In this document: positions 9,780-13,058 of the stretch, piece by piece | Position numbering within the stretch: position 1 is the stretch's first letter | How the letters are laid out: every line of letters starts with the position of its first letter | Source of the DNA: a virus | Reading direction: 5' to 3' (one strand) | Virus record (IMG/VR): IMGVR_UViG_3300037961_000471 | Location: 1 to 20,327 of that record | Length of the DNA stretch: 20,327 nt | The notes under the pieces: model-generated | The model's input: only the letters and a program-made list of their open reading frames with translations | Database searches by the model: none | Told to the model about the DNA's origin: nothing | Position numbers and translations under genes: made by a program

Positions 9780-10444
9780 CTATAATTTTATTCTTTTAGC
9801 GTTACTTTCTCTGTATTTTTTTAGTACTGCCTGTATCTCCTCTTGTGTCGCTACTTTTTTCTTTACTTTTCTTTTACTATCCCAATCAAAAGGCATAATT
9901 TCTTGTGGTTTCATTTTGCGCTTGAGATGTGGTGACAAGCATGAATGTACAATCATTCTAGTCTGCTCCCAATGATTTTGCATAATCATCTCCTCTCTTT
10001 GGCTAAAACCTATCATTTTATTACTAAAAGAGCGAGGCGTTAAATCATACAGCTCATCAATGGTCATGCTTAGCATTCCTAATCCTTGTTGTTCTAGCTT
10101 ATCCCAAGTGAAATCCTCAGCATCATCTAACTCCTCACTCTGTACTACTTTCCCTTTTTTTGGGGCTGGTCTATTTTAAAAGCCTCGAATATCTCATTTA
10201 CTTTTGAGAAATCCTCATTATCTAACCAATTCTCAATATCTCTAACTTTGTACTTAAATTCTTCGCCATTTTTCTTAGCTCCGTATTTAAGACCATAGTA
10301 AGCAATAATACCTATATGATCTATTTCAGTACCTAGCTGGTCAATCTCATTTAACTTTAATTTACATTCGTTGCAAATTTCTTTTAAAGCTAAATAACTA
10401 AATCTAATTGGCCTTTTTTGGCCTCCTATTTCAACCTTTTCCAT
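9780..10444 (-). CDS. Tail assembly chaperone, frameshift fusion (gpGT-type)
   Basis: A -1 shift at the A AAA AAG site (10160-10154) joins the 99-aa upstream frame to the next frame, giving a predicted 221-aa product. I checked the codons between the slip site and the first ATG of the downstream frame (10076): no stop occurs, and they encode GKVVQSEELDDAEDFTWDKL and on into MLSMTIDELYDLTPRSF. The extension contains a NHWEQTRMIVHSC helix and a basic C-terminus (KRKVKKKVATQEE). In lambda and many siphophages, G and GT chaperones produced this way load the tape measure and recruit tail tube subunits. The downstream frame alone lacks a well-placed start of its own, supporting expression by frameshift. 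Position directly before the tape measure fits perfectly. Confidence 0.88.
10145..10444 (-). CDS. Tail assembly chaperone, unshifted product (gpG-type)
   Basis: A 99-aa protein with the usual features of short tail chaperones: N-terminal beta part (KVEIGGQKRPIRFSYLAL), then helices with CNECKLKLNEIDQLGTEIDH and a C-terminal helix FSKVNEIFEAFKID before a basic tail QPQKKGK. A Cys pair (C24, C27) is present, possibly incidental. Most ribosomes would stop at TAG 10147-10145, just after the slip site, making this the abundant form that coats the tape measure during tail assembly. It follows the two tail-tube-type genes. Sequence identity to named families is too weak to state, but location and frameshift architecture make the role near certain. 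Confidence 0.85.
   Translation of the reverse strand: MEKVEIGGQKRPIRFSYLALKEICNECKLKLNEIDQLGTEIDHIGIIAYYGLKYGAKKNGEEFKYKVRDIENWLDNEDFSKVNEIFEAFKIDQPQKKGK
10154..10160 (-). promoter_or_regulatory. Programmed -1 ribosomal frameshift site (A AAA AAG)
   Basis: In the frame of the upstream chaperone ORF, the codons CAA AAA AAG contain the heptamer A AAA AAG in the correct register, the same slippery site as E. coli dnaX. It lies 3 codons before the TAG stop, and a -1 slip enters an open frame that runs to 9780. A run of seven A followed by GGG surrounds it. I see no strong downstream hairpin or GGAGG-type stimulator, so shifting could be moderate. Confidence 0.87.
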
Positions 10445-10464: not shown

Positions 10465-12183
10465 CTACAAAACTTTCTTTAGTGATATTGAACTTAGCCA
10501 AATTGTTACTTGCCCACCAGCCACACGAACAAACTCAAGACTTTGCATTTCAGGATATAACAAAACAGAGTGAGTTCCTTGTGTTGATGGAATTTTCATA
10601 TGTATATCAGGACTATTTTGCCAACCTTTATCAATTTGAATAGATCCTTGTGGGCTTGGAGAACTTGAAATTGTATAAGTCAAAAGATAATAATCACCAA
10701 CATTCATTATATTTGGAGTGGCAAGTTGTGTAGTAGCACCTGTTGTAATAATTTTACCATAACCATTTTCAACAACACTAGAACCACCCGAAACAGACCA
10801 ATAACTAGGATTGTCAAATCCTGTATCAGTAATTAACTCAGGACCAAGTCCATTTGGATAAATATTACCTGTACCAGTAAATGTAGCCGAACAAACACAA
10901 TTATCCTCTACTCCCGCGTCAAAACTTAAACTAGATACAAGTGCGTAACCTTGCCAATGTGTAATATTGATAGGGTCTTGATAATCAGAAACACTATTAC
11001 TTTGTTCTAATTGCCAAGAAGAAACAAAAACTTTGTCTGAGCTTTGTTCCTCAGCTAACCCAGGGTATATTCTAAATTGTACACTTGAAATTTGATCCTC
11101 TCCTTTTGCATCATATTTTCCTGGCCACTCTACTACTACTCGACACCAAGTTTCATCTAAGTCCTCTATTTTGTAATAACCTGAACCTATATTAGCGTGA
11201 GTATAAGCTGAAACTGATTCACTTCCATTACCACCAACAATTCTTATTGTTGCATCATTTAAAGATGCAAATGGTATGTTGATTGTTGCTTTTGTTGTTG
11301 ATGTTGCATTATCACCTCTAAGATAAAAACTCCAAGTTAATTTTTTACCTTGCAATCTAGTAGGAGAAATACTATATTGTAATCTATTTTGACTTGCTGT
11401 TGTTGATTGAATACTAGATGCAGTTGTGCCTCCAAATGGATCAGCCTGTAAATTAACTTGTGTTGTGTTTGAGTCTATAAAAAAACCATCAACACCACCT
11501 TGTGTAAGGTTAGTGCGTATAATGTTTCTAATTCTATCAGAGAAAGTTAAATCTACCTCAGTTCCATTTTTTAGTTTATCAAAAAAATCTGTACCATTTA
11601 AAGGTACATCAGGATTAATTGATTGTAATAATTCAGTAGATATTTCAAAAGATTTTAAGCCTGGTTCGACTTCTGACCAGCCGCCTGAATCTTTGTTAGT
11701 TATATCTCTTAAATCTCTATTAACACTAAAAGATGCTGATGTGCTAAAAGCTACAGGGTCAAATATTGCTGATGAGCCAGGAGTAAGTATCTCTATAATA
11801 ATAGCATCTTCATTAATAGTTGCTGTTCCATTAATGATTTCTAATATAGGAACTATTCCGTTAACACCATTTGTGTAATCTCTATATCTGTAATCTCCAT
11901 CTAAAACACTTGCAGCAGTTTGTGAATAACCATTATCAGTAACTAACATAGTAGATATTACTGCTAGTACAGAAGCACCATCATTTGCAGACGCATTAGT
12001 TTCTTCATCATCATAAACATATCCTGAATTATCAGTAATATTATTTAATTTAAGAGTACCTGTAGTACTACCATCAGGTATTTCTAATGGATCAACCTCC
12101 TTTACATAAATTCTAGTAACTTGAGCTTCAGCACTTGCCGTCTTAGCGTAAACCAATAAATCCGAAGCGTTTGTAATTGCCAT
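10465..12183 (-). CDS. Large tail tube paralogue with carbohydrate-binding-like inserts (572 aa)
   Basis: Parts of this protein align with the neighbouring 135-aa tail tube protein. Residues 147-183 (STSASFSVNRDLRD, GLKSFEIS) and 200-214 match its first half. Residues 412-441 (GYALVSSLSFDAGVEDN, FTGTGNI) match its last strands. Between the halves, about 218-408, lies an insert with the phage lectin/CBM-like pattern: DPFGGTTASSIQS, LTWSFYLRGD, ETWCRVVVEW, and SSWQLEQSNSVSDYQ. Residues about 447-572 form a second such domain, starting GPELITDTGFDNPSYWSVSG. The first 140 residues are an extra unrecognised domain. It probably forms or decorates the tail tube and exposes sugar-binding surfaces. 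Paralogy is read directly from the sequence; binding is inferred. Confidence 0.82.
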   Translation of the reverse strand: MAITNASDLLVYAKTASAEAQVTRIYVKEVDPLEIPDGSTTGTLKLNNITDNSGYVYDDEETNASANDGASVLAVISTMLVTDNGYSQTAASVLDGDYRYRDYTNGVNGIVPILEIINGTATINEDAIIIEILTPGSSAIFDPVAFSTSASFSVNRDLRDITNKDSGGWSEVEPGLKSFEISTELLQSINPDVPLNGTDFFDKLKNGTEVDLTFSDRIRNIIRTNLTQGGVDGFFIDSNTTQVNLQADPFGGTTASSIQSTTASQNRLQYSISPTRLQGKKLTWSFYLRGDNATSTTKATINIPFASLNDATIRIVGGNGSESVSAYTHANIGSGYYKIEDLDETWCRVVVEWPGKYDAKGEDQISSVQFRIYPGLAEEQSSDKVFVSSWQLEQSNSVSDYQDPINITHWQGYALVSSLSFDAGVEDNCVCSATFTGTGNIYPNGLGPELITDTGFDNPSYWSVSGGSSVVENGYGKIITTGATTQLATPNIMNVGDYYLLTYTISSSPSPQGSIQIDKGWQNSPDIHMKIPSTQGTHSVLLYPEMQSLEFVRVAGGQVTIWLSSISLKKVL

Positions 12184-12207
12184 AATTATAGGATTTAAAA
12201 GTTAATA

Positions 12208-12615
12208 TTAAGATTGTGTAAGTGTACCTGTACCTGTTAAAGTAATTGAATAAGTTGCGTTTTCTTCTACTCCAGCATCTAATGAGAATGATGTAATAAT
12301 TGCATCTCCTGTATATAACATACCTGTTAATCCAAATGTACACTGAACAGCTGTACCAGCTAACATAGTAGTAAATAATTCCTCAGAATCTGCTTTGCCA
12401 GCTACTCCAGCTATTTCAACAAACCCCTCGCCTGATAATTCCCATGATTTTAGACCAGCTAAATTAGCTTGAAAGCCTCCTGATGATTTTGTAGTTGAAT
12501 CTCTTAAATCCAAACTTACTGATAATGATGCTGATGTGCAATGAGCTATTTCTTGTAAAGAGCCTCCTGATGTTACACTAAGCACTACATTTGTTGCATT
12601 TTCTATTCCTGCCAT
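12208..12615 (-). CDS. Major tail (tube) protein, TP901-1 family
   Basis: A 135-aa protein with the TP901-1-type major tail protein pattern: SASLSVSLDLRDSTTKSSGG (28-47), GLKSWELSGEG (54-64), an ELFTTMLAGTAV helix-strand, and the closing strand pair ITSFSLDAGVEENATYSITL with LTGTGTL. Hexameric rings of it would stack into the tube. It is short but complete. The neighbouring 572-aa gene is a clear paralogue. It lies between the DUF3168 tail completion gene and the chaperone pair, as expected. Spacing to both neighbours is about 25 nt, unlike the overlapping genes elsewhere, so it may have its own strong ribosome-binding region; the leader is A/T-rich with no GGAGG. Confidence 0.88.
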   Translation of the reverse strand: MAGIENATNVVLSVTSGGSLQEIAHCTSASLSVSLDLRDSTTKSSGGFQANLAGLKSWELSGEGFVEIAGVAGKADSEELFTTMLAGTAVQCTFGLTGMLYTGDAIITSFSLDAGVEENATYSITLTGTGTLTQS

Positions 12616-12641
12616 TTTACTTGTTTTTTGTGTTTACTAAT

Positions 12642-13058
12642 TTAATCAATTATTCTTAATCTATATGTACTTTCAACGTAATAATATTTATTATCTCCGT
12701 CAAAATCAGTTGTCTGCGAATCTAATATACAGCTTTGTATTTTTATTGTATTATAAGTACCCTCAGCTATTTTGTCAAATAACTCTTGTACCCTTACAGC
12801 TAAACTTATTGCGTCTGCATATTTATTCATAAAAGATTCTATTTGCAGTGTAACTATTGTTAAGCCTGGTTTATCTGATGTTTTTGTATATTCATTATCA
12901 ACAGATAATACATCATAATAAATACCAGCTCTAGGCGCTTGTGTATATATCGCACTAGGCTGTATATTAGCTGCTGTACCTATTAGTGTTGTAATTGTAG
13001 AATCACCTGATAATATATTAAATACTGCTTTTCCTATCTTTAATCCTATTGCTGCCAT
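12642..13058 (-). CDS. Tail completion/terminator protein (DUF3168 family)
   Basis: A 138-aa protein with the DUF3168 pattern: an N-terminal helix (IGLKIGKAVFNILSGD), STITTLIGTAANIQPSAIYTQ, a central YDVLSVDNEYTKTSDKPGLTIVTLQIE strand pair, a helix DAISLAVRVQELFDKI, then ILDSQTTDFDGDNKYYYVESTYRLRI as closing strands. Members such as SPP1 gp17 sit at the head-proximal end of the tail and join it to the head. Its ATG overlaps the preceding stop as TAATG. Order between the gp10-like gene and the tube gene is standard. Confidence 0.87.
   Translation of the reverse strand: MAAIGLKIGKAVFNILSGDSTITTLIGTAANIQPSAIYTQAPRAGIYYDVLSVDNEYTKTSDKPGLTIVTLQIESFMNKYADAISLAVRVQELFDKIAEGTYNTIKIQSCILDSQTTDFDGDNKYYYVESTYRLRIID

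Follow-up and report, generated by a model that had tools for sequence, protein, structure and literature searches.

Two adjacent genes of the virus record IMGVR_UViG_3300037961_000471, whose entire 20,327 bases form the window analyzed here, encode a 135-aa tail tube protein and a 572-aa paralogue of it in which the tube fold is interrupted by a nested domain. The two genes are paired throughout their relatives, some of which have an empty site in place of the nested domain, and the start codon of the paralogue lies in a conserved hairpin whose stems carry compensatory changes. We propose that the pair specifies a two-component tail tube.

Two adjacent genes encode paralogous tail tube proteins

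The preliminary description of the window had proposed a duplication of the tail tube gene, and our searches bear this proposal out. Both open reading frames (ORFs) were confirmed, and they lie in the order tail terminator, tube pair, two chaperone-like ORFs and then tape measure, a placement typical of tube genes. The pair and its immediate neighbors are as follows.

12642 to 13058, minus strand: tail terminator gene, next upstream of the pair (PHROG 347, 1.5e-6)
12208 to 12615, minus strand: small tail tube gene P0002, 135 aa (PF06199, PHROG 1407, profile matches to 6tba and 8qhs)
10465 to 12183, minus strand: tail tube paralogue P0001, 572 aa (search against its own contig, PF06199, PHROG 1407, AlphaFold2)
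10145 to 10444, minus strand: tail assembly chaperone-like ORF, 99 aa, next downstream of the pair (before the tape measure; weak PHROG 2115 tail match, 0.0048)

Four pairs of sequence blocks are common to the small and the large protein, in the same order and in agreement far beyond chance: SASFSVNRDLRD / SASLSVSLDLRD, GLKSFEIS / GLKSWELS, FFDKLKNGTEVDLTF / LFTTMLAGTAVQCTF, and SLSFDAGVEDN...FTGTG / SFSLDAGVEEN...LTGTG. When the 572-aa protein was searched against its own contig, it matched the small gene in two pieces, through residues 129-214 (E = 2.5e-9) and 410-441 (E = 2.4e-5). The Phage_tail_2 family (PF06199; curated cut-off, 23.8 bits) scores above its cut-off in both proteins, with 47.3 bits for the 135-aa protein and 36.2 bits for residues 127-188 of the 572-aa protein, and it matches 24 of 24 short paralogues from related loci. 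Both proteins also match PHROG 1407, annotated as major tail protein (4e-26 for the 135-aa protein; 3.8e-16, in two stretches, for the 572-aa protein). Profile comparisons link the small protein to Rcc01691, the tube protein of the Rhodobacter gene transfer agent RcGTA (6tba, 6.4e-5), and to PDB entry 8qhs (1.4e-11), and the paralogue to the tube protein (4e-38). As judged by sequence, the 135-aa protein is a TP901-1-type tail tube protein, and its 572-aa neighbor is a paralogue of it. We consider it likely that this paralogue is part of the tail.

The tube fold of the paralogue is split by a nested domain

An AlphaFold2 model of the 572-aa protein, built on an alignment of 97 sequences (paralogues with and without the insert, plus small tubes), has a mean pLDDT of 85.9 and a pTM of 0.66. 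An earlier model, built on 12 sequences, had pLDDT values of 22-32 in the tube region, and its fold search served solely to assign the extra domains to a fold class. In the 97-sequence model, three tube strands (residues 128-134, 150-160, and 172-188) are followed by a helix (198-206) and by strand 4 (209-216); then comes the insert, and strands 5 (408-423) and 6 (429-437) lie behind it. The elements of the TP901-1-type fold (strands 1-3, the helix, strands 4-6, and the long loop between strands 2 and 3) are all present. The preliminary description had named a tube barrel around residues 147-217 plus 412-441 as the check on its proposal, and the model does place tube strands on both sides of the insert. 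The parts of the protein are listed below.

11803 to 12183, minus strand: N-terminal arm (residues 1-8, like that of the small tube protein) and N-domain (residues 9-127); in every complete paralogue, and in the model
11536 to 11802, minus strand: first part of the split tube fold, residues 128-216, strands 1-4 and helix (AlphaFold2; PF06199 at 127-188)
10963 to 11535, minus strand: nested domain, residues 217-407, in the loop between strands 4 and 5.1; beta-rich and jelly-roll-like (empty site, model, fold search)
10861 to 10962, minus strand: second part of the split tube fold, residues 408-441, strands 5 and 6 (self-search, PHROG 1407, model)
10468 to 10848, minus strand: C-terminal domain, residues 446-572, beta-rich (model; absent from nine complete insert-bearing relatives)

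The boundaries of the insert can also be read from insert-free relatives of 249-270 aa, which have an exact empty site (FAERDSG-VKWEG) where the protein of the window reads FSDR...(insert)...HWQG. The strand order of the model and the empty-site relatives agree with the earlier claim of a nested domain of about 190 aa and a C-terminal domain, and we are highly confident that the tube fold is split in this way. That earlier list of parts was incomplete, as it missed the N-domain and the hairpin around the start codon; residues 1-127 form a third extra part, in which the arm is followed by about 118 aa.

In the nomenclature of Zinke et al. (PMC8718954), which we follow for strands and loops, the insert occupies loop 4-5.1. 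In SPP1 and 80alpha, this loop makes no contacts and protrudes outside the tube (PMC8718954), and it is therefore plausible, by analogy, that the insert faces outward.

The extra domains resemble jelly-roll proteins in fold class

The nested and C-terminal domains had been described as lectin-like. Their placement was correct, but their assignment to carbohydrate-binding modules (CBMs) or lectins was not supported: profile searches of both domains against CBM and lectin families gave no family match, and sequence searches of Pfam, PHROG, and the PDB gave no significant match for either domain. A Foldseek search returned a tandem CBM22 protein (4xup, E = 1.7e-6) among other jelly-roll proteins, with whole-chain TM-scores of at most 0.33. 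Going by the models, "jelly-roll, CBM-like" is a fair description that denotes a resemblance of fold class only, and we regard sugar binding by these domains as doubtful. Insecticidal and other toxins, which topped the fold search with the 97-sequence model, were discarded because they share jelly-roll domains at whole-chain TM-scores of about 0.2 or less.

Two further relationships were considered and set aside. The insert and the C-domain are not copies of each other (hhalign probability, 0.1%), and a profile comparison does not support reading the N-domain as a decayed second tube domain (compare T5 pb6): only its first 15-18 residues match the tube.

Elsewhere in the related loci, small ORFs beside portal and head genes (L005:1388-1834 and L009:420-1253) carry domains of the type GPELI.NG.F...W...ISLKKV, like the C-domain of the paralogue. 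The L005 ORF matches the C-domain profile and the likeness of the L009 ORF was judged by eye; the C-domain thus seems to be a module shared between head and tail genes.

The tube gene pair is obligate among relatives, and the paralogue occurs in three builds

Among viral contigs we found 48 loci with a large paralogue and many more with a small tube gene or a short paralogue, from which 95 distinct pairs of small tube gene and paralogue were obtained. A paralogue follows every small tube gene that has sufficient downstream DNA, usually after 24-25 nt, and no paralogue with room upstream lacks a small gene. The one apparent small tube gene without a paralogue proved to be a false match in a tape measure gene.

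Eighty-nine of the 95 paralogues are complete, the remaining six being cut by contig ends, and the complete ones come in three builds. The plain build, an N-domain and an uninterrupted tube domain (249-270 aa), accounts for 42 of the 89; nine have the nested domain (428-456 aa), and 38 have both the nested and the C-terminal domain (555-590 aa). The nested insert that the preliminary description emphasized is thus real, but as a frame for the gene pair it was too narrow, because a plain, insert-free second gene is common. For the same reason, the two-gene tube is most likely the older state, to which the decoration was added later.

Identity among the insert-bearing paralogues is 78-84% in the tube parts, 50% in the N-domain, 46% in the C-domain, and 38% in the core of the insert, a pattern expected if exposed domains evolve fast on a scaffold that stays fixed. 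In a tree of the shared core, the insert-bearing paralogues form one clade of 46 members (support, 99/96), which by its topology gives the nested domain a single origin in the main clade. A divergent insert in the same loop (L072:2048-3334) sits on a separate long branch, which suggests that this site received an insertion a second time. On this tree, several changes of state are seen for the C-domain. At one locus (L040:6514-8119), the beginning of the C-domain is lost and the remainder lies out of frame behind a 440-aa paralogue; a programmed frameshift was considered for this ORF and rejected, and because the start of the domain is missing, the arrangement looks like decay of the decoration.

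Beyond these viral contigs, neither P0001 nor the short form has a match in 50,697 cultured phage records, and no relative turned up in either of two scans of 84,980 bacterial and archaeal genomes. Two cultured phages identified by way of the capsid protein, phi39:1 and CRP-406, each have a single tube gene without a paralogue. Cellulophaga phi39:1 is the capsid's cultured Bacteroidota match, at 22% identity.

A conserved hairpin encloses the start codon of the paralogue

The two tube genes are separated by a leader that is nearly invariant, as compared with an average identity of 57% in the small tube protein. Its sequence can pair with the beginning of the paralogue gene as follows.

12184 to 12207, minus strand: intergenic leader, 24 nt, TATTAACTTTTAAATCCTATAATT (16 of 24 positions at least 99% conserved in 69 relatives)
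12151 to 12203, minus strand: start-codon hairpin with the ATG in its loop (inner and outer stems, covariation, RNAalifold)
12191 to 12197 with 12157 to 12163, minus strand: inner stem, TAAATCC with GGATTTA (codons 7-9)
12200 to 12203 with 12151 to 12154, minus strand: outer stem, AACT with GGTT

The motif AACTTTTAAATCC occurs 75 times in 700 kb of loci, in all cases at the start codon of a paralogue. The 3′ arm of the inner stem, GGATTTA, is the reverse complement of TAAATCC and spans codons 8 and 9 together with the last base of codon 7. Codon 7 is TCG (Ser) in 91 of 95 paralogues, and TCG makes up 6.1% of the other Ser codons in these genes. The exceptions are one Thr codon, ACG, which keeps the G; L139, where TCA at codon 7 is accompanied by the leader TAAATCT and forms a compensatory pair; and L133 and L138, which read TCA GAC and whose leader arm is gone.

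Across 79 distinct aligned sequences, 95.5% of the alignment cells pair, three of the 11 stem pairs have changed on both sides, and every measure of pairing falls when the partner is slid by 1-3 columns. RNAalifold recovers the same helix unprompted. Starts of the paralogues are more structured than their synonymous shuffles (mean z = −0.96) and those of the small tube genes are less so (z = +0.73); taken alone, the hairpin of the window has an unremarkable fold energy at 37°C (z = −1.18). Scans of the whole collection found a leader C together with a Ser7 G in 117 stretches and with another Ser7 base in none, and a different leader base in six, of which one is U-A, another U-G, and the remaining four, all from a single clade, G-G. 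In the clade L179/L184/L186-L188, G-G takes the place of the innermost pair, which is thus not indispensable. All 94 distinct C-leader contexts in the examined loci start a tube paralogue.

The position of the hairpin is likewise constant. Among the 92 leaders that have an arm, the 5′ arm lies 10 nt past the upstream stop codon in 89 and 7-8 nt ahead of the ATG in 90, and indels are tolerated in the loop only. The hairpin has no match in Rfam. Since it is found both with and without decorations, it belongs to the two-gene tube itself. We consider it very likely that a conserved element acts at the RNA level at the start of the paralogue.

Initiation contexts of the two genes suggest unequal and possibly linked expression

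The paralogue starts 24 nt behind the small gene with no evident Shine-Dalgarno sequence, and to our knowledge the Bacteroidota are a phylum without Shine-Dalgarno use. Its leader has A at −3 and at −11 to −13, the latter within the stem. In Flavobacterium johnsoniae, A at −3, −6, −12, and −13 promotes initiation, and structure hinders it (PMC6847099). The leader of the small tube gene (12616-12645, minus strand) is conserved, A-rich, and little structured, and it has A at −3, −6, −12, and −13 in 84-100% of relatives, a strong initiation context of the Bacteroidota type. Given this resemblance in adenine pattern, a Bacteroidota host is likely.

We propose that the locus encodes a two-component tail tube with the 135-aa protein as its plain major subunit. 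The paralogue retains the channel-lining strands and the loop for ring-to-ring contact, carries up to three extra domains (a constant one near the N terminus, a second nested in the outward 4-5.1 loop, and a third at the C terminus), and would most likely be built into the same tube, either in fewer copies or at particular positions. Its extra domains would face the exterior and there probably contact the host surface weakly or stabilize the rings. The hairpin around the start codon may hold the amount of the paralogue below, and tied to, that of the plain subunit: by hiding the A-rich stretch at −11 to −13 it would lower initiation, and it would be opened by ribosomes that complete translation of the upstream tube gene, so that the ratio is fixed.

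We lean toward this account as a whole; control of the ratio by coupling is, in our judgment, evenly balanced. Conserved inner strands with variable outer ones are also seen within ordinary tube families, which is a counterpoint to a two-component tube, and the loss of the leader arm in L133 and L138 is one to coupling. According to a review, coupling can also be weakened by structure that closely follows a stop codon (PMC12548453), and the hairpin may accordingly do no more than damp translation. In its boldest form, that an uncultivated lineage builds its tube from two paralogous subunits at a ratio set by a ribosome-opened hairpin, with the second subunit as a platform that gained outward loop domains at least twice, the proposal is tentative and falls slightly short of even chances.

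Several other explanations were weighed. The paralogue could form one specialized ring at an end of the tube, as an adaptor to the tail tip or to the terminator, with the extra domains acting locally. Its strict co-occurrence with the small gene, its fixed position between the tube and chaperone genes, and a start hairpin that fits a product needed in few copies are all compatible with such a ring. The paralogue is, however, very close to the tube protein (profile match, 4e-38), and distal tail proteins are usually less close to it than that; its stacking loop between strands 2 and 3 is kept and is about 55% identical to that of its partner; and it is encoded before the tape measure gene, whereas distal tail proteins usually follow it. 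There are structural parallels for an end ring in that the constant N-domain sits at the arm that faces the neighboring ring in YSD1, and in that the tube-like domains of JBD30 gp49, a distal tail protein, each harbor a nested oligosaccharide-binding domain (PMC11445458). Taken together, we find a single end ring unlikely. That both proteins are equal partners, building every ring or alternate rings, would agree with the obligate pairing and with the conservation of channel-lining strands in both, but the structured start of the paralogue against the open, A-rich leader of the small gene suggests unequal expression, and we rate equal partnership as very improbable.

The conserved leader itself could be a DNA element, an operator or promoter, with no RNA hairpin involved, since compensatory changes by themselves fit an inverted repeat in DNA as well as a hairpin in RNA. 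Yet the element is centered on the start codon at a fixed 10 nt past the stop codon, admits indels only in its loop, uses a rare codon inside the gene for its 3′ arm, and has arms 29 nt apart, which is unusual for an operator; a DNA element is in our view quite improbable. As for the extra domains, they may bind no sugar and serve as structural braces that lock neighboring subunits, like domain 2 of YSD1_22, which girds the ring (PMC7385642). The lack of a sequence match to any sugar-binding family agrees with such a role. Against it, the insert and the C-domain are the fastest-evolving parts of the paralogue, and the C-domain was gained or lost several times, a pattern that suits exposed adhesins better than ring locks. 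We therefore think braces rather unlikely.

Comparison with known tail tubes

A close likeness in domain layout is YSD1_22, the tube protein of the chi-like phage YSD1, which also has an N-terminal extension, a nested beta-sandwich domain, and a C-terminal domain (PMC7385642, PMC8718954). It differs in being a single tube protein with Ig-like nested and C-terminal domains; its nested domain is placed between helix 1 and strand 4 in the review (PMC8718954) and between strands 4 and 5 in the original report (PMC7385642). The major tail protein of JBD30, gp44, likewise has a decoration domain (residues 88-175) nested in its tube beta-sandwich (PMC11445458), but it is a single tube protein with an Ig-like insert directly after the helix, whereas here strand 4 intervenes.

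Two tube forms, the longer with an extra domain, are known from the 936 lactococcal phages (MTP with the TpeX extension; PMC6669499), in which this domain is a CBM and host binding was shown with GFP-labeled protein. There, the two forms come from one gene with a programmed frameshift and the CBM is C-terminal; the present system has two separate genes and a nested main domain. SPP1 also has two tube subunits, gp17.1 and gp17.1*, of which the longer has an outward domain (as the paralogue here would); their ratio is fixed at about 3:1 and set at translation, and the extension is dispensable (PMC6316719). SPP1 uses a +1 frameshift in one gene, in contrast to the paralogous gene with a start-codon hairpin as candidate control in the present case. 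A frameshift of the 936 or SPP1 type is ruled out in the window by two ORFs with their own start codons, 24 nt apart.

Neighboring paralogous tube genes occur in the actinophages Damascus and Camille, which have two or three (PMC11080557); the three proteins of Camille (286, 410, and 255 aa) all match PHROG 2645. These phages differ in their tube family and in having another gene between the first two tube genes. Translational coupling by RNA unfolding (PMC12548453) resembles the present arrangement in its co-oriented neighbors and in a structure over the start of the downstream gene, which is inhibitory in the coupled systems and conserved here; the spacing of +24 nt and the lack of an evident Shine-Dalgarno sequence set our case apart, in which coupling would be the proposed function. 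In the open-license literature, we found no known system that unites separate paralogous genes with a large domain nested behind strand 4 and a hairpin at the start codon.

It was thus already known that tube proteins can carry nested or C-terminal domains and that frameshifting can yield two tube forms. New are an obligate two-gene tube across about a hundred related phages and a conserved candidate element of translational control in phages with Bacteroidota-like leaders. Because empty, singly decorated, and doubly decorated forms all survive, the growth of tail decoration can be read step by step, and the hairpin makes it testable how phages fix the copy ratio of plain to decorated tube subunits. 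If our account is true, a translational stoichiometry device does the job of the programmed frameshift of SPP1 and 936.

Other observations

The 99-aa chaperone-like ORF downstream of the pair has CCCCAAAAAAAGGGAAAG at its end (window 9780-10444, minus strand). A −1 shift at this sequence opens a frame (KKGKVVQSEELDDAEDF...) that runs on into a 98-aa ORF, and a programmed frameshift of the lambda G/GT type is likely at this site, going by its sequence. In the related contig IMGVR_UViG_3300020469_000117 (36.5 kb; L016 and L050), the paralogue is present twice, in identical copies separated by about 28 kb, and this spacing suggests that a genome of about that length was assembled past its end.
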